Of a stretch of 64,000 bases of DNA, positions 5,531-47,471 are shown one piece after another (the stretch's first letter is position 1; each line of letters begins with the position of its first letter). The stretch covers positions 1 through 64,000 of the forward strand of contig NZ_CANLNS010000008.1 in assembly GCF_947492715.1 (NCBI RefSeq), read 5' to 3'. The notes beneath the pieces were generated by a model. It did not search any database. It saw only the letters and a program-made list of their open reading frames with translations, and had not been told where the DNA came from. Position numbers and translations under genes: made by a program. The stretch comes from an uncultured Psychroserpens sp. Lineage in GTDB: Bacteria; Bacteroidota; Bacteroidia; Flavobacteriales; Flavobacteriaceae.

Positions 5531-5562
5531 AAAGGCAGCTATTTTATAGCTGCCTTTTTTTG
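5531..5562 (+). terminator. Rho-independent terminator of the adhesin gene
   Basis: A 10-bp stem (AAGGCAGCTA / TAGCTGCCTT) with a 5-base loop is followed by a T run, 41 bases after the adhesin stop codon. Confidence 0.85.
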
Positions 5563-5671
5563 TTTAATACTTTTGCATTTAAAGTATATTTCTAATTCCA
5601 TAATAGAGGTATAGTTTAAGAATAAAATATCAGGTGTTTATTGAGAAGAAAAATAATAATAACCATACAGG

Positions 5672-6121: not shown

Positions 6122-8689
6122 TTATGACTCTTGTTGTTTTTCAGACTTCTCAATTTTAATAGTTAATTCATCAGACTTTGTATCTAAATCCATAGTAATT
6201 GTATCGCCTTCATGTAATTGAGAATTAATAATTTCCTCAGCTAAAGCGTCTTCAATATACTTTTGTATCGCTCTTTTAAGTGGCCTTGCACCATAATCCT
6301 TGTCAAAGCCTTTTTCAGCAATATAATCTTTTGCTTTCTTGCTTAACTTTAGTCTATATCCTAGATCTTTTATACGTTTAATGAGGTGAGCCAATTCGAT
6401 ATCAATGATTTTATTAATGTCTTCTCTGTCTAGAGCATTAAACACCATGACATCATCAATTCTATTTAGGAATTCGGGAGCAAATGCCTTTTTGAGTGCA
6501 TTTTCAATAATACTCCTTGAATTGTCATTAGCCTGAGCTGTTTTAGCCGCAGTACCGAAACCAACACCTTGACCAAAATCTTTTAATTTCCTCGCACCAA
6601 TGTTTGACGTCATTATAATGATTGTATTTCTAAAATCGATTTTTCGACCTAAACTATCTGTTAAGTAGCCATCATCTAGAACCTGTAAAAGCATATTAAA
6701 CACATCTGGATGTGCTTTTTCAATTTCATCCAATAAGATTACCGCATACGGCTTTCTTCTTACTTTTTCCGTTAACTGTCCGCCTTCCTCATATCCTACA
6801 TAGCCTGGAGGAGCTCCAATTAACCTTGAAATAGCAAATTTCTCCATGTATTCGCTCATATCAATTCTAACAAGTGCTTCTTCACTGTCAAATAGTTCTC
6901 GAGCCAATACTTTAGCTAACTGTGTTTTACCAACACCGGTTTGTCCCAAAAATATAAATGAACCAATTGGCTTATTTGGATCTTTAAGTCCAGCACGATT
7001 ACGCTGAATAGCTTTTACAACCTTTGCAACGGCTTCGTCTTGACCAATAACTTTCCCTTTTATAAGTTCAGGTAATTGAGCTAATTTGTTACTTTCTGTT
7101 TGGGCGATTCTGTTAACCGGAATACCTGTCATCATTGAAACAACATCTGCAACATTATCTTCTGTAACGAGTTCTCTATGTTGTTTAGTTTCTTCTTGCC
7201 ATTTTTCTTGAGCAATTGCTAAGTCTTTTTCAAGGCGTTTTTCATCGTCTCTAAGTTTTGCTGCCTCTTCATATTTTTGTTTTTTAACAACTTTGTTCTT
7301 AGTTTCCTTGACTTCTTCTAACTTTTTTTCTAGCTCTATAATTTGATCAGGAACATTTATGTTAGTAATATGAACACGTGAGCCGGCTTCATCTAAAGCA
7401 TCTATCGCTTTGTCTGGAAGAAAGCGTTCGGTCATATATCTATTGGTTAATTTAACGCAAGCCTCAATAGCTTCTGGCGTATAATCAACATTATGATGCT
7501 CTTCATATTTACCTTTTATATTATTTAATATCTCAATTGTTTCTTCTACGGTTGTTGGTTCTACAATGACCTTTTGGAAACGACGCTCTAGAGCTCCATC
7601 TTTTTCTATATACTGTCTGTATTCGTCTAAGGTTGTTGCTCCAATACATTGGATTTCACCTCTTGCTAAAGCAGGCTTAAACATATTTGATGCGTCCAAA
7701 CTACCTGTTGCACCTCCTGCACCAACGATTGTATGAATTTCATCTATAAAGAGAATAATGTCATCATTCTTCTCTAATTCGTTCATTACAGCCTTCATGC
7801 GTTCTTCAAATTGACCTCGATATTTTGTTCCAGCCACTAAACTTGCTAAATCTAAAGTAACAACACGTTTATTAAACAGTATTCTTGAAACTTTTCTTTT
7901 CACTATTCTAAGGGCTAGACCTTCAGCAATTGCCGACTTACCAACACCGGGTTCTCCTATCAATAAAGGATTGTTCTTTTTACGTCTACTCAAAATTTGG
8001 GAGACACGTTGTATTTCCTTTTCTCTTCCTACAACGGGATCAAGTTTACCTTCTTCTGCTAGAACTGTAAGGTCTCTTCCAAAGTTATCCAAAACTGGGG
8101 TTTTAGACTTTTTAGTTGATTTAGCCGAAGATTGTCCAAAAGGGTTCTCTTTAGCAGCCTCGTCTTCATTAGGCTCGTCATCAGAGAACGACTCAGATTT
8201 TGGAAGATCTATATAATCATCATCATTTGTAATCATAAATTTGAATTGTTCTTTTACATTATCATAATCTACCTTTAACTTATTCAAAAGTTTTGTGGTA
8301 GGGTCGTTTTCATTTCTTAAAATGCACAATAATAAATGTGCGGTATTAATAGATGTACTCTGAAATAATTTAGCTTCTAAAAAAGTTGTTTTCAGAGCGC
8401 GTTCTGCTTGTCTTGTTAGATGTAAGTTCTTCTTTTCGTTCGAAGCAGTCGTGATATTGGGATTGGCAGGGCTTAAAATTTCAACCTTTCTTCTTAAATG
8501 ATTGAGGTCAATATCCAACGCATTTAATATATCAATAGCTTTGCCATTACCATCACGAAGAAGTCCCAGCATTAAATGCTCGGTACCTATAAAATCATGA
8601 CCTAAACGTAAAGCTTCTTCTTTGCTGTACGCAATTACATCCTTAACTCTTGGGGAAAAATTATCGTCCATAGTAATCTCTTTCTGCAT
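6122..8689 (-). CDS. clpC: ATP-dependent Clp protease ATP-binding subunit ClpC
   Basis: An 855-residue Hsp100 unfoldase that feeds substrates to ClpP. Two N-terminal Clp_N repeats (about 1-155) precede an acidic linker (about 165-190). AAA+ domain 1 has Walker A GEPGVGKSA near 246. A coiled M-domain with a UVR-like helix (KYEEAAKLRDDEKRLEK, about 473) follows. AAA+ domain 2 has Walker A GQTGVGKTQ near 581 and Walker B VILLDEIEKAHPD. The C-terminal D2-small domain carries GFDKDYGARPLKRAIQ. Length and order fit ClpC rather than ClpB, because the middle domain is short. The gene is monocistronic: divergent from gyrA upstream and followed by a terminator. Confidence 0.95.
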   Translation of the reverse strand: MQKEITMDDNFSPRVKDVIAYSKEEALRLGHDFIGTEHLMLGLLRDGNGKAIDILNALDIDLNHLRRKVEILSPANPNITTASNEKKNLHLTRQAERALKTTFLEAKLFQSTSINTAHLLLCILRNENDPTTKLLNKLKVDYDNVKEQFKFMITNDDDYIDLPKSESFSDDEPNEDEAAKENPFGQSSAKSTKKSKTPVLDNFGRDLTVLAEEGKLDPVVGREKEIQRVSQILSRRKKNNPLLIGEPGVGKSAIAEGLALRIVKRKVSRILFNKRVVTLDLASLVAGTKYRGQFEERMKAVMNELEKNDDIILFIDEIHTIVGAGGATGSLDASNMFKPALARGEIQCIGATTLDEYRQYIEKDGALERRFQKVIVEPTTVEETIEILNNIKGKYEEHHNVDYTPEAIEACVKLTNRYMTERFLPDKAIDALDEAGSRVHITNINVPDQIIELEKKLEEVKETKNKVVKKQKYEEAAKLRDDEKRLEKDLAIAQEKWQEETKQHRELVTEDNVADVVSMMTGIPVNRIAQTESNKLAQLPELIKGKVIGQDEAVAKVVKAIQRNRAGLKDPNKPIGSFIFLGQTGVGKTQLAKVLARELFDSEEALVRIDMSEYMEKFAISRLIGAPPGYVGYEEGGQLTEKVRRKPYAVILLDEIEKAHPDVFNMLLQVLDDGYLTDSLGRKIDFRNTIIIMTSNIGARKLKDFGQGVGFGTAAKTAQANDNSRSIIENALKKAFAPEFLNRIDDVMVFNALDREDINKIIDIELAHLIKRIKDLGYRLKLSKKAKDYIAEKGFDKDYGARPLKRAIQKYIEDALAEEIINSQLHEGDTITMDLDTKSDELTIKIEKSEKQQES

Positions 8690-8928
8690 TAAAAATAATA
8701 AAATCTACCTATAAAAGGGCAAAAACTATACCTTAAATATAGTAGTAGTACTAATAGAGTGAAAAAACTTTACAAATTCAAAGTATTTAACAAGATACTT
8801 ATTAAAAATCGAGCTTAAATTTGTTAATAAATAGTTCTAAATTTTGACTTTATAAGTCGCCCAAACACTATGAAAATCGTTATCTTAGCACGATTTGAAA
8901 ACCTACAAAAATCTAATTTATATAATAT

Positions 8929-40367: not shown

Positions 40368-41306
40368 TTATTTAGCTATCGGACTAATAATTTCAACGTT
40401 TTGAAATGCTATGGCGCCTCTAATAATACCAGATATGACATTGTGCAAGGCATCAATAATTTGCATTTTTAATTCGCTTTTGTGATAAATAATACTCACT
40501 TCACGAGCAGGTGAAGGTGCATTAAAATGATGTAACTTATTCGACATTTTCTCATTTAAATCGAGTGTATTTAAATAGGGTAGGAGTGTCATCCCTAGCC
40601 CTTCGTTAGATAACTTTACTAGCGTTTCTATGCTACCGCTTTCTAACTGAAATTTATCGTCTTCATGAGTTTTAAATGCTTTACATAGATTGATAACGCC
40701 ATCTCTAAAACAATGACCATCTTCTAGAAGTAACATGTCGTTAATGTCTAAATCTGAAACGTCAATTTTTTTCTTGTCTTTTAACCTGTGATCGTCTGGA
40801 ATGTAGCCAACAAATGGCTCGTAGTAGAGCACACGTTCCTTTATAGTATCATGTTCTAAGGGGGTTGCGGCAATGGCTGCATCTAAATGACCATCTGCAA
40901 TTCTTGTGATAATTTCTTCTGTAGTGAGCTCCTCAATTTTAAGTTTAACTTTTGGATACTTTTTTATAAAAGTTTTTAGAAACATTGGCAGGAGCGTTGG
41001 CATTATTGTTGGAATAATACCAATTTTAAATTCGCCTCCAATAAACCCTTTTTGTTGATCTACAATATCTTGAATACGATCTGATTCGTCAACGATATTT
41101 TTGGCCTGTTGTACTATTTTTTTACCAACGTCGGTAAGTTCAATAGGTTTTTTACTTCTATCGAAAATAAGTATATCTAGCTCATCTTCAAGTTTTTGTA
41201 TTTGCGTGCTTAGTGTTGGTTGGGTTACAAAACACTTCTCTGCGGCTTTAGTAAAGTTCTTATGTTCGGCTATAGCCAACACATAATGAAGTTGTGTTAT
41301 TGTCAT
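40368..41306 (-). CDS. oxyR: Hydrogen-peroxide sensing LysR-type regulator OxyR
   Basis: 312 residues. The N-terminal LysR winged helix (about 1-60) has FTKAAEKCFVTQPTLSTQIQKLED (quoted in part: CFVTQPTLSTQ). The effector domain has the two redox cysteines in DGHCFRDGVINLC; counted from the ATG they are C199 and C208, the same positions as in E. coli OxyR. Oxidation to a disulfide would switch on peroxide-defence genes. The divergent dps gene is the classical target, and the short intergenic region contains a repeated element. Confidence 0.93.
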   Translation of the reverse strand: MTITQLHYVLAIAEHKNFTKAAEKCFVTQPTLSTQIQKLEDELDILIFDRSKKPIELTDVGKKIVQQAKNIVDESDRIQDIVDQQKGFIGGEFKIGIIPTIMPTLLPMFLKTFIKKYPKVKLKIEELTTEEIITRIADGHLDAAIAATPLEHDTIKERVLYYEPFVGYIPDDHRLKDKKKIDVSDLDINDMLLLEDGHCFRDGVINLCKAFKTHEDDKFQLESGSIETLVKLSNEGLGMTLLPYLNTLDLNEKMSNKLHHFNAPSPAREVSIIYHKSELKMQIIDALHNVISGIIRGAIAFQNVEIISPIAK

Positions 41307-41409: not shown

Positions 41410-41889
41410 ATGACACTAAATAGCATAGGTTTAGATACCCAGAAAACAAAAAAGATAACAGGAGATTTGAATTATCTCCTTGCAAATTTTCAAATTTATT
41501 ATCAAAACTTAAGAGGTATTCATTGGAACATAAGAGGAAAACGTTTTTTTGATTTACACGTAAAATTTGAAGAGCTGTATACTGATGCCAATGTAAAAGT
41601 AGATGAAATTGCAGAGCGTATTTTAACGTTAGGAGCAACACCATTACATACGTTCGAAGATTACACGAAAGCGGCCAAAGTTCCTGTAGGAAGGCACATT
41701 TCAGAAGATGAAAAAGCCGTAAGACTTATTGTTGCTTCTTTAACCGAATTATTAAAAATAGAACGTCAAATTCTAGATGACTCAGGCAACGCCCAAGACG
41801 AAGGAACGAATTCTATGATGAGTGATTTCATTACAGAACAAGAAAAAACAGTTTGGATGATGAAAGCATGGTTGGGTGAAAGTGTATAG
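41410..41889 (+). CDS. dps: Dps-family ferritin-like DNA-protecting protein
   Basis: 159 residues forming a four-helix bundle. The inter-subunit ferroxidase centre is visible as NLRGIHWNIRGKRFFDLH and FEELYTDANVKVDEIAERI (His, His/Asp and Glu ligands). A dodecamer would oxidise ferrous iron with hydrogen peroxide and shield DNA. The length is typical and the N-terminal tail is short, so non-specific DNA binding may be weak. Divergent from oxyR. Confidence 0.95.
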   Translation: MTLNSIGLDTQKTKKITGDLNYLLANFQIYYQNLRGIHWNIRGKRFFDLHVKFEELYTDANVKVDEIAERILTLGATPLHTFEDYTKAAKVPVGRHISEDEKAVRLIVASLTELLKIERQILDDSGNAQDEGTNSMMSDFITEQEKTVWMMKAWLGESV

Positions 41890-43513: not shown

Positions 43514-43541
43514 AAGACAACTGTCAAAAAAAATACCCTAC
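43514..43541 (-). promoter_or_regulatory. ECF-type promoter of the Kazal lipoprotein gene
   Basis: On the minus strand: GTAGGGT (43541-43535), 14 bases, TTGTCTT (43520-43514), 45 bases before the ATG. The identical pair with identical spacing precedes fecR. The 14-base spacer between heptamers fits the -35/-10 geometry of ECF sigma promoters. Confidence 0.75.
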
Positions 43542-43573
43542 TTTTCACTCTAAATTTTTTTTATTTAGTTTTG

Positions 43574-44110
43574 ATGCATTCACTTTCAAACCAAATAATG
43601 CCTAAAGATCAACATAAAATATGTCATTCTGAAACTTTTGAATCCATCTATAAAACGTATGCGAAAGATCTAAGACGGTTTATATTTTTCAAAACTCAAG
43701 ATATAGATAAGGCCGAAGATATTCTGCAAGAGACATTTATTAAACTCTGGGATAATTGTGAAAAGGTAAATTATGATAAGGTGAAGAGTTATCTGTATAC
43801 AGTCGCGTCAAATACATTTTTAAATTCGGTGAAACATGAAAATGTTATTAAAAAACACCAACAAGGTTTAATTCATAAAACCACTAATGAATCTCCAGAG
43901 TTTATCATGTTAGAAAAGGAATTTATGGATAAGCTAGATCGAACCATCAATGGTCTGCCAGATAAGCAACGCGAGGTGTTTTTATTAAATAGAATTGAAA
44001 AAAAGAAATATAAAGATATTGCTCAACAATTAAATATTTCAATAAAAGCTGTAGAAAAACGAATGCACCTGGCTTTGGTGGTCATTAGGGAGGAGATTGG
44101 TAATATTTAA
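43574..44110 (+). CDS. ECF-subfamily RNA polymerase sigma factor (FecI-like)
   Basis: 178 residues from ATG 43574; a later Met at 43598 is an alternative. Region 2 reads FESIYKTYAKDLRRFIFFKTQDIDKAEDILQETFIKLW (quoted in part: DIDKAEDILQETFIKLWD). Region 4 has LPDKQREVFLLNRIEKKKYKDIA and LNISIKAVEKRMHLAL, with the recognition helix of a Bacteroidota FecI-type sigma. It would be held by the FecR protein encoded 61 bases downstream. Its predicted promoters (GTAGGGT-N14-TTGTCTT) precede fecR and the divergent Kazal gene, but are not seen in front of its own gene. Confidence 0.93.
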   Translation: MHSLSNQIMPKDQHKICHSETFESIYKTYAKDLRRFIFFKTQDIDKAEDILQETFIKLWDNCEKVNYDKVKSYLYTVASNTFLNSVKHENVIKKHQQGLIHKTTNESPEFIMLEKEFMDKLDRTINGLPDKQREVFLLNRIEKKKYKDIAQQLNISIKAVEKRMHLALVVIREEIGNI

Positions 44111-44128
44111 AAAAAATAAACATTTACG

Positions 44129-44156
44129 GTAGGGTTTTATTAATTGTAATTGTCTT
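44129..44156 (+). promoter_or_regulatory. ECF-type promoter of fecR-receptor operon
   Basis: GTAGGGT (44129-44135), 14 bases, TTGTCTT (44150-44156), ending 15 bases before the fecR ATG, so the leader would be very short. Same bipartite element as at 43514-43541 on the other strand. Confidence 0.75.
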
Positions 44157-44171
44157 TATATTAGAATACGC

Positions 44172-45098
44172 ATGGAACAACAAGATTTACATAACGATAA
44201 CGAGACATTCTTGGCTAAATGGTTAGCAGGAGAACTTTCTAATGATGTACTGAAAGCTTTGGTGACAGAAGAAGAGTTTAATTCTTATTTAAAACTAAAA
44301 AAAGGAATAGAGACTCATGAGAGATTAGAAGGGTCTATCGATGATTCTTTTGCTAATATTTCAGATCGAATTTCTCAAAAACATACCAAGGTTCGTCAAT
44401 TAAATACGAATAGTTGGTTTATTGGCATTGCTGCCTCTATTGTGTTGTTTTTTGGATTGTTTTTTACTTTAGGAGATGATGTTAAGACGATAGAAACTAA
44501 CTATGGCGAATATAAAACGGTCGCATTATTAGATGGGTCTGAAGTTATTTTAAACTCAAAGTCTACATTGACATATAATGAAGATGATTGGGCTTCTAAT
44601 AGAACATTGACACTAGATGGTGAGGCTTATTTTAAAGTAAAAAAAGGAAGCACGTTTACTGTTGTAACTACCAATGGGGAAGTTAAAGTTTTAGGAACGC
44701 AATTTAATGTTAACTCAGTAAGCGATTTATTTGAAGTGGTTTGTTTTGAAGGAAAAGTGAGCGTCCTATCCAAAGGTGAAACTCACGTCTTGTTGCCAAC
44801 ATATTCTGTAAGAAGAATTAATGGCCATGGCTTAGAAACATGGGAAACTTCAGAAGCAGATCCAACATGGATACACGGAGAAAGTACTTTTAAAAGTGTA
44901 CCATTAAACTATGTTATTTCGGCATTAGAATCACAGTTTAATGTGGTTATTGAGGCTAAAAATATTGATAAAACTATAATTTATACGGGTAGTTTTACTC
45001 ACAGTGACTTAGACACAGCTTTAAAAACAGTGTTTAAATCTCTACAAATAAGATACGTTGAAAAAGAAAAAGGAAACATCTATTTGAGCACAAAGTGA
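44172..45098 (+). CDS. FecR-family anti-sigma / sigma-regulator protein
   Basis: 308 residues. The cytoplasmic N-terminus (ETFLAKWLAGELSN...) binds sigma. One membrane segment lies near 78-98 (WFIGIAASIVLFFGLFFTL). The periplasmic FecR domain follows (YGEYKTVALLDGSEVILNSKSTLTY, quoted in part: LLDGSEVILNSKSTL; LDGEAYFKV; VLGTQFNV). A C-terminal STN-like DUF4974 domain (about 235-305: FKSVPLNYVISALESQFNV) ends the protein. It passes the receptor signal to the ECF sigma factor. It overlaps the receptor gene by four bases (GTGA). Confidence 0.93.
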   Translation: MEQQDLHNDNETFLAKWLAGELSNDVLKALVTEEEFNSYLKLKKGIETHERLEGSIDDSFANISDRISQKHTKVRQLNTNSWFIGIAASIVLFFGLFFTLGDDVKTIETNYGEYKTVALLDGSEVILNSKSTLTYNEDDWASNRTLTLDGEAYFKVKKGSTFTVVTTNGEVKVLGTQFNVNSVSDLFEVVCFEGKVSVLSKGETHVLLPTYSVRRINGHGLETWETSEADPTWIHGESTFKSVPLNYVISALESQFNVVIEAKNIDKTIIYTGSFTHSDLDTALKTVFKSLQIRYVEKEKGNIYLSTK

Positions 45099-47441: not shown

Positions 47442-47471
47442 TTGATTGATTGATTGATTGATTGATTGATG
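47442..47471. repeat. (TTGA)7.5 short tandem repeat
   Basis: Thirty bases of perfect TTGA repeat lie between two convergent genes, 10 bases before the DUF2141 stop. Confidence 0.9.

Follow-up and report, generated by a model that had tools for sequence, protein, structure and literature searches.

A Repeated Bipartite Element Predicted to Join a FecI-type Sigma Factor, Its TonB Receptor Operon, and an Acidic Lipoprotein in Psychroserpens

Introduction

In a 64,000-nucleotide stretch of Psychroserpens DNA (the window), the gene for a FecI-type ECF sigma factor lies between two copies of one bipartite element, GTAGGGT-N14-TTGTCTT. One copy faces a lipoprotein gene, and the other faces fecR and the gene of a TonB-dependent receptor. 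This arrangement raises the question of whether a single sigma factor drives both transcription units, and what a lipoprotein contributes to such a system. An initial annotation of the sequence had proposed that the sigma factor co-induces its anti-sigma/receptor operon together with a secreted Kazal-type lipoprotein, and that the output, or the ligand partner, of the system is a surface protease inhibitor. The two parts of this proposal were examined by pattern scans, profile searches, and comparison of related loci.

Results

The Module and Its Two Elements

The gene calls for the lipoprotein, the sigma factor, FecR, and the TonB receptor hold (Table 1). The sigma factor reached a score of 131.3 with TIGR02985 (cut-off 126.4) and contains regions 2 and 4 only, which places it in the ECF type. 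The adjoining fecR gene encodes a protein that matched PF04773 with 66.4 bits (cut-off 24) and FecR_C with 33.6, again above cut-off; a membrane segment was read by eye. Its nearest named relatives belong to Psychroserpens (75% identity). In the receptor, FecR_C matched residues 25-93 with 34.5 against a cut-off of 24.4, which identified an N-terminal signaling domain. The barrel scored 53.6, above cut-off, the plug 24.0 (cut-off 23.9), and the STN model 25.6 bits, under the Pfam cut-off of 28.4. No relative of the receptor was found by sequence in the PDB at E 0.01.

Table 1. Features of the sigma-FecR-receptor module and the divergent lipoprotein gene (positions in the window)
Feature	Position	Strand	Remarks
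Lipoprotein, 496 aa	41979..43469	-	Lipobox with Cys22, then TNDE; three Kazal-like 6-Cys units; 'YP' repeats
Element 1, GTAGGGT-N14-TTGTCTT	43514..43541	-	Predicted ECF promoter of the lipoprotein gene; exact match
TAGTTTTG	43566..43573	+	Fits TAnnTTTG, -7 box of the primary sigma factor; single short match in A/T-rich DNA
FecI-type ECF sigma factor	about 43598..44110	+	Recognition helix KAVEKRMH; Pfam Sigma70_r2 and r4_2 above cut-off
Element 2, GTAGGGT-N14-TTGTCTT	44129..44156	+	Predicted ECF promoter of fecR-receptor; exact match
FecR-type sigma regulator	44172..45098	+	FecR (PF04773) and FecR_C domains, Pfam
TonB-dependent receptor, 766 aa	45095..47395	+	N-terminal signaling domain, plug, barrel

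Beyond the lipoprotein gene lie a LysR/OxyR-like gene (40368-41306, minus strand) and a Dps-like gene (41410-41889, plus strand), both named by eye. The two stand beside the lipoprotein gene in 12 of 14 related loci as well, and L065 and L073 have the LysR/OxyR-like gene alone. A run of GATT repeats (47444-47470) follows shortly 3' of the receptor gene.

A pattern scan of the window recovered both element copies with zero mismatches at exactly the positions that had been reported for them, and the six other matches (of eight) carried three mismatches each, which is chance level. Element 1 ends 44 nt upstream of the lipoprotein ATG and element 2 ends 15 nt upstream of the fecR ATG. As the initial annotation had also stated, the heptamers and the N14 gap are the same while the spacers and flanks are not alike, and no sense-oriented element was found upstream of the sigma gene. 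The sigma gene is preceded by TAGTTTTG, an octamer that agrees with the -7 box consensus of the primary sigma factor as given in passages of PMC9723704. This octamer is a weak candidate for the promoter of the sigma gene and a faint hint at primary-sigma control. With the copies less than 650 bases apart, the pair might be ascribed to local duplication or to chance. We regard this as extremely improbable in view of the differing spacers and flanks, the lack of a third exact copy in the 4.2 Mb of the genome, and the presence of both sites across the Psychroserpens-type and fresh loci described below.

Conservation of the Element

Fifteen loci (the window, L061-L073, and L090) form the Psychroserpens-type set. 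All 15 have GTAGGGT-N14-nTGTnnT before the lipoprotein gene and before fecR, and both heptamers were letter-perfect before the lipoprotein gene in 13 loci and before fecR in nine. The footprint alignment of these 15 loci was registered on a pattern containing GTAGGGT, and conservation of the -35 part in that alignment is therefore given by construction; the actual finding is the occurrence of a site in both places at 15/15 loci. Three exact copies occur in the distant Olleya locus L078. L087 and L088 each contain one exact copy before a same-strand lipoprotein gene, fecR being without a copy of its own.

A general form of the element, nn[A/G]GGnn-N14-nTGT[C/T/A]nn, was written after viewing the first 38 loci. 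In the sense direction it was present in 71 of their 76 upstream regions, compared with one region on the opposite strand and a mean of 2.2 (maximum 7) over 200 rounds of shuffling. An N14 element is missing from five regions, namely those upstream of the lipoprotein gene in L083 and L139 and those upstream of fecR in L074, L087, and L088. When the gap was varied over the same 76 regions, N14 gave 71, N13 gave 50, and N18 gave 25, while the remaining gaps between 8 and 20 yielded 0-8. The N13 count arises from slippage of the register along the GGG run, and the N18 rows that were inspected contained for the most part these very elements with AGG in front of them. The elements are situated 7-102 nt upstream of start codons. 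The fixed pattern was used instead of an automatic search for shared blocks in each locus, which often returned A/T-rich or shifted matches. Because the loci share ancestry, the locus counts do not represent independent events. One locus of the same genome as the window, L126, is not among the 76 regions and is an exception to the rule: its fecR side has GTAGGGT without an N14 -10 box, and a GTAGGGT-N14-CTGTTTA at 6912-6939 (plus strand) is oriented toward the 3' end of the gene listed next.

Frequency of the Element in the Genome and the Family

The genome to which the window belongs (4,199,835 bases) contains two exact matches, namely the pair in the window. Another two sites have one mismatch and 43 have two. 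The resulting total of 47 sites with up to two mismatches compares with 39 for the reversed pattern, so that the exact pair alone stands out. As the near-matches occur at control level, the strict regulon in this genome, judged by pattern matching, probably consists of these two units. A large regulon was considered and rejected: one- and two-mismatch sites do not exceed the control, and both one-mismatch sites are located within ORFs.

Across 299 family genomes, this one included, a tally of the result table gave 47 exact matches in 29 genomes and 11 matches for the reversed pattern. Thirty-seven of the 47 copies have module genes within 4 kb, two precede the gene of a small secreted protein away from the known module, and eight are found elsewhere, three of them within ORFs (judged on 1.5 kb each side); these eight are about the control level. 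Equal frequency of the motif at unrelated loci, which according to the initial annotation would have refuted its proposal, was therefore not observed. The small secreted protein preceded by an exact element in two Olleya-type genomes (L113 and L114, position 1501-1528) is of the KKxYYQKRAKEDAKFEQ type. Its gene lies away from the known module in these two and inside the module cluster in other genomes.

Covariation of the Element with the Sigma Recognition Helix

Six FecR genes are present in the genome of the window. At two of the corresponding loci, L127 and L130, the divergent gene encodes a lipoprotein from the same wider family, and each locus has its own matched pair of elements: TCAGGAG-N14-TTGTTAT twice in L127, and TTGGGAC/CTGGGAC-N14-TTGTTTT in L130. 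Agreement over 14 element positions was calculated for the 33 loci with both elements, the candidate being hand-picked for L077 and L079 and the first one being taken for all others. It amounted to 12.97 for own-locus pairs and to 13.16 for pairs from the same sigma-helix class, versus 8.84 for pairs from different classes.

From the sigma alignment a rule was read that rests on two residues of the recognition helix. K together with H or S (e.g. KAVEKRMH) goes with GTAGGGT, K with Y (KAVEKRIY) with GTAGGA, and Y with Y (KVVEYRIY) with TCAGGA. H with Y (KVAEHRIY) goes with nTGGGAC in a single locus, L130, and this class is absent from the fresh loci.

The rule was tested out of sample in the fresh loci only. 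These are 56 loci found with the lipoprotein profile, from which L181 and L195 had been excluded, as the first set already contained the modules of these two; the genomes of the fresh loci may include species already seen. A sigma gene lies beside the lipoprotein gene in 55 of the 56. The remaining one, L160, has no sigma gene in the stretch examined, and its lipoprotein match begins 249 bases from the contig start. In the fresh loci that fall into the stated classes, the predicted heptamer was present in 44/54 lipoprotein regions and 43/54 fecR regions; the 21 of 108 regions without the exact heptamer comprise nine with no element and 12 that are one base off. The 55th locus, L169, combines a mixed helix, KVVEYRVH, with a mixed element, TCAGGGA, before both genes. 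Position by position (110 fresh regions, first element found per region, TGTC/TGTT counted only), base 6 was G with H/S in 37/37 detected elements and A with Y in 64/64, and hence followed the rule in 101/101. Bases 1-2 were GT with K in 40/42 and TC with Y in 53/59. In a residue alignment, which is not a base-by-base register, the two covarying residues correspond to SigW T171 and H174. According to passages of PMC6713349, T171 in the SigW complex bonds to A-34, and H174 contacts T'-32/T'-33. Judged from these alignments, the sequence of the -35 heptamer varies with two residues in the recognition helix of the sigma factor. The module is common among the Flavobacteriaceae, and each of its copies seems to use a private promoter code.

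A conserved bipartite site does not by itself identify its reader, and the elements might be operators of an unrelated DNA-binding regulator rather than sigma promoters. This explanation is very improbable, given the fixed N14 gap, TGTC/TGTT at the -10 position, the short distance to start codons noted above, and the covariation of the element with the sigma helix. Conservation, strand and shuffle controls, private pairs, and the fresh helix test together provide support at the sequence level for the central proposal of the initial annotation, i.e. that a FecI-type sigma factor co-drives fecR/receptor and the lipoprotein gene.

The Lipoprotein Family

The mature window lipoprotein (475 residues) contains 28 Cys, 26% D+E, one Arg, and no Lys, and each of the 15 Psychroserpens-type proteins, that of the window among them, has 0-4 Lys/Arg. 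This depletion is not uniform, Lys+Arg ranging from 0.3 to 7.9% in 21 proteins without Kazal-like units and from 1.4 to 9.6% in the 56 fresh lipoproteins. The median of the latter is 4.4%, compared with 12.3% for 50 other ORFs of over 250 aa from the same loci. For L063, L067, L069, and L076, the composition comparison used a mature start at a Cys earlier than the likely lipobox. L070, the sequence of which contains X, was left out of alignment A2. Relatives across clades have repeated 'YP' units in common. A profile-profile comparison of the Kazal-bearing with the Kazal-less set gave a probability of 99.8, to which shared signal peptides and composition contributed in part.

The lipoprotein profile, built from members of other clades, matched 203 of 299 family genomes, compared with 36 of 299 for the window lipoprotein used as a single query. 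In the phylum, 41 of 395 genomes gave a match, 35 from the same family and six from outside it, five of the six being weak and partial. No Pfam match above cut-off was obtained for the family members scanned, and no sequence relative of the lipoprotein was found in the PDB at E up to 1. A SusC-SusD partnership was considered and rejected, as a Pfam search with the lipoprotein (E up to 0.1) yielded no SusD match, sub-threshold Kazal_2 being the only hit. SusC is longer than the receptor encoded here.

The N terminus that follows the lipid-bearing Cys reads CTNDE in the window protein and is of the C[R/Q]-x-E type in most relatives, many of which have CRKEE or CRTEE. The latter come close to the surface-export signal C-X-K-(D/E)2 given in passages of PMC5080379, and the window CTNDE fits it more loosely. 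On the sequence comparisons, the constant feature of these systems is a family of acidic, Lys/Arg-poor lipoproteins and not the Kazal units.

Kazal-like Units

The units were identified with the six-cysteine pattern (PVC, N-x-C) that we take to be typical of Kazal domains. By this pattern the window protein has three, with C-x7/8-PVC and N-A-C-x3-C spacing. The Pfam Kazal_2 model scored 15.3 bits (cut-off 22.8), and none of ten relatives scanned exceeded the gathering score, the best reaching 14.0. The designation of the lipoprotein as "Kazal" in the initial annotation is therefore weak: it agrees with the cysteine pattern and falls short at the level of the Pfam model. Units of this kind were detected in 17 of 38 compared lipoproteins, i.e. 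in 15/15 of the Psychroserpens type plus L087 and L088, and in none of the 56 further ones. At the position that we presume, from Kazal inhibitors, to be equivalent to P1, 38 units have D (14), E (11), N (4), C (4), G (2), and F, A, or T (one each), the four C calls being due to mis-registration. Lys or Arg was not found there in any of the 38. We view these units as no more than a local embellishment that some lineages have.

Varying Outputs

In Olleya-type genomes, clusters headed by the element also contain another lipoprotein of this family, a small secreted protein, an outer-membrane barrel, and a lipoprotein with an HExxH motif (Reprolysin_3 19.1 bits, below 22.4). The divergent gene of L074 encodes a peptidase-like lipoprotein (Peptidase_Mx1 22.9 bits, below 25.6). 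These outputs point to surface lipoproteins, not inhibition, as the common theme. HEFGH/HEFCH lipoproteins in element-led clusters, apparently metalloproteases, are encoded at L133:5505-6293, L134:2919-3701, and L141:7546-8313.

The reading of the initial annotation, that the system induces a surface Kazal inhibitor and that protease inhibition is the chief task of the lipoprotein, could draw on the three units with their characteristic spacing and on the HExxH lipoprotein of the Olleya-type clusters. It is nevertheless improbable. The units are missing from 21/38 and 56/56 lipoproteins, the Pfam score is sub-threshold with no PDB relative, and of 38 units, 29 have D, E, or N at the P1-equivalent position and none has K or R. 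As a general reading, a protease inhibitor as the defining output was rejected on the same three lines, namely absence, Pfam score, and P1 residues.

Two further loci of the same genome were noted. In L129, ATAGGGT-N14-ATGTCTT at 5544-5571 (plus strand) stands upstream of a different fecR gene. An ATAGGGT half-site at this locus is directed at a divergent gene that looks thioredoxin-like (named by eye). By this pattern, the paired layout may serve non-lipoprotein outputs too. In L128, an orphan GTAGGAA-N14-TTGTTCT at 7327-7354 (plus strand) faces an ffh-like gene at 7423-8853 (named by eye). The relative L075 has a lipoprotein gene between the ffh-like gene and the sigma gene, and the orphan element in L128 is possibly a promoter left behind after loss of the lipoprotein.

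A different role would be that of a stand-alone polyanionic or metal-binding surface coat, with the receptor merely sensing a condition. The acidic composition of the mature window lipoprotein with its one Lys/Arg, the Asp-rich stretches in lipoproteins of other clades, and the half-site in L129, by which outputs can differ, are all in keeping with such a coat. We consider it rather unlikely, and the linkage of lipoprotein and sigma genes at 55/56 fresh loci is tighter than an arbitrary output gene requires.

Discussion

As far as sequence can tell, one dedicated sigma factor very probably uses both elements to switch on a nutrient-sensing receptor operon together with the gene of an acidic lipoprotein. 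That the regulatory core is surface signaling of the FecI/FecR/FecA type with a divergent output gene is, on the gene content and the elements, highly likely. In the proposed mechanism, FecR would hold the ECF sigma factor, the gene of which may be transcribed from a primary-sigma promoter. Upon ligand binding by the TonB receptor, the N-terminal signaling domain would act via FecR, resulting in active sigma factor. This would read GTAGGGT-N14-TTGTCTT, the KAVEKRMH helix contacting the -35 part and region 2 the -10 part (TGTC). Active sigma factor would transcribe fecR-receptor and, since fecR is under the element with the receptor, feedback would be added. It would also transcribe the divergent gene of the very acidic lipoprotein, which most likely would reside on the cell surface beside the receptor and capture ligand or act in gating (compare BtuG/BtuB and SusD/SusC). 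We infer the function of the elements as promoters of this sigma factor, the signaling steps, the surface exposure, and the accessory role of the lipoprotein.

SusD and BtuG are receptor-linked surface lipoproteins, and because of this precedent an accessory of the receptor appears to be the likeliest role of the lipoprotein, one that is proposed by analogy and at not quite even chances. It is conceivable, and put forward with some doubt, that the Flavobacteriaceae maintain parallel, insulated lines of this kind, each with a private pair of sigma helix and promoter dedicated to a receptor and to an acidic, Lys/Arg-poor lipoprotein that captures or gates.

If the code is true, the sigma recognition helix would tell which promoters a sigma factor owns in the Flavobacteriaceae, and the regulons of otherwise untested sensors could be listed from sigma helices. 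The naturally mixed helix/element pair in L169 makes the code directly testable by point mutants. The lipoprotein family, widespread in the genomes searched, would be a regular companion of TonB signaling receptors, and its Lys/Arg depletion, extreme in the lineage of the window, asks for an explanation. The parallel lines considered above would, if they exist, amount to a new lipoprotein-receptor partnership with a readable sigma-promoter code.

Known systems resemble the module in part, as far as passages of the papers cited here describe them. The E. coli FecI-FecR-FecA system (PMC9249621) likewise comprises an ECF sigma factor, a FecR regulator, and a TonB receptor with an N-terminal signaling domain, and its sigma gene is also not under its own promoter. 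There, fecI and fecR are transcribed together and without autoregulation, and the fecA promoter is the one promoter that FecI serves, whereas here fecR itself has the element and the divergent lipoprotein gene has a second copy. The ECF/anti-sigma SusC-SusD loci of Bacteroides (PMC7782687) share an STN-type receptor, an ECF/anti-sigma pair, and a receptor-linked surface lipoprotein; they differ from the present unit, in which no SusD match was found, the lipoprotein gene is divergent to the sigma gene, and no carbohydrate enzymes were seen by eye. BtuG-BtuB (PMC6143338) provides a parallel for a surface lipoprotein gene beside that of a TonB receptor and for an export-signal-like N terminus. 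BtuG binds vitamin B12, and the likeness is in gene layout and, more loosely for the window protein, in the N terminus.

Several homologous alternative sigma factors with limited cross-talk in one cell are described for the clostridial SigI paralogues (PMC6056542), where the sigma family, the sensor, and the phylum are different. In B. thetaiotaomicron, TGTT near -10 is reported for some ECF-linked promoters, although the motif search made in that study for the factor was not significant (PMC12596196). TGTT recurs in elements of the related modules here, and the passages of that paper mention no -35 code of the GTAGGG or TCAGGA type. The kind of signaling is thus known. In searches of openly licensed PMC papers, no description of the element or of a Kazal/FecR system was recognized, nor was any report encountered of the promoter code, of this lipoprotein as a partner, or of private paired elements.
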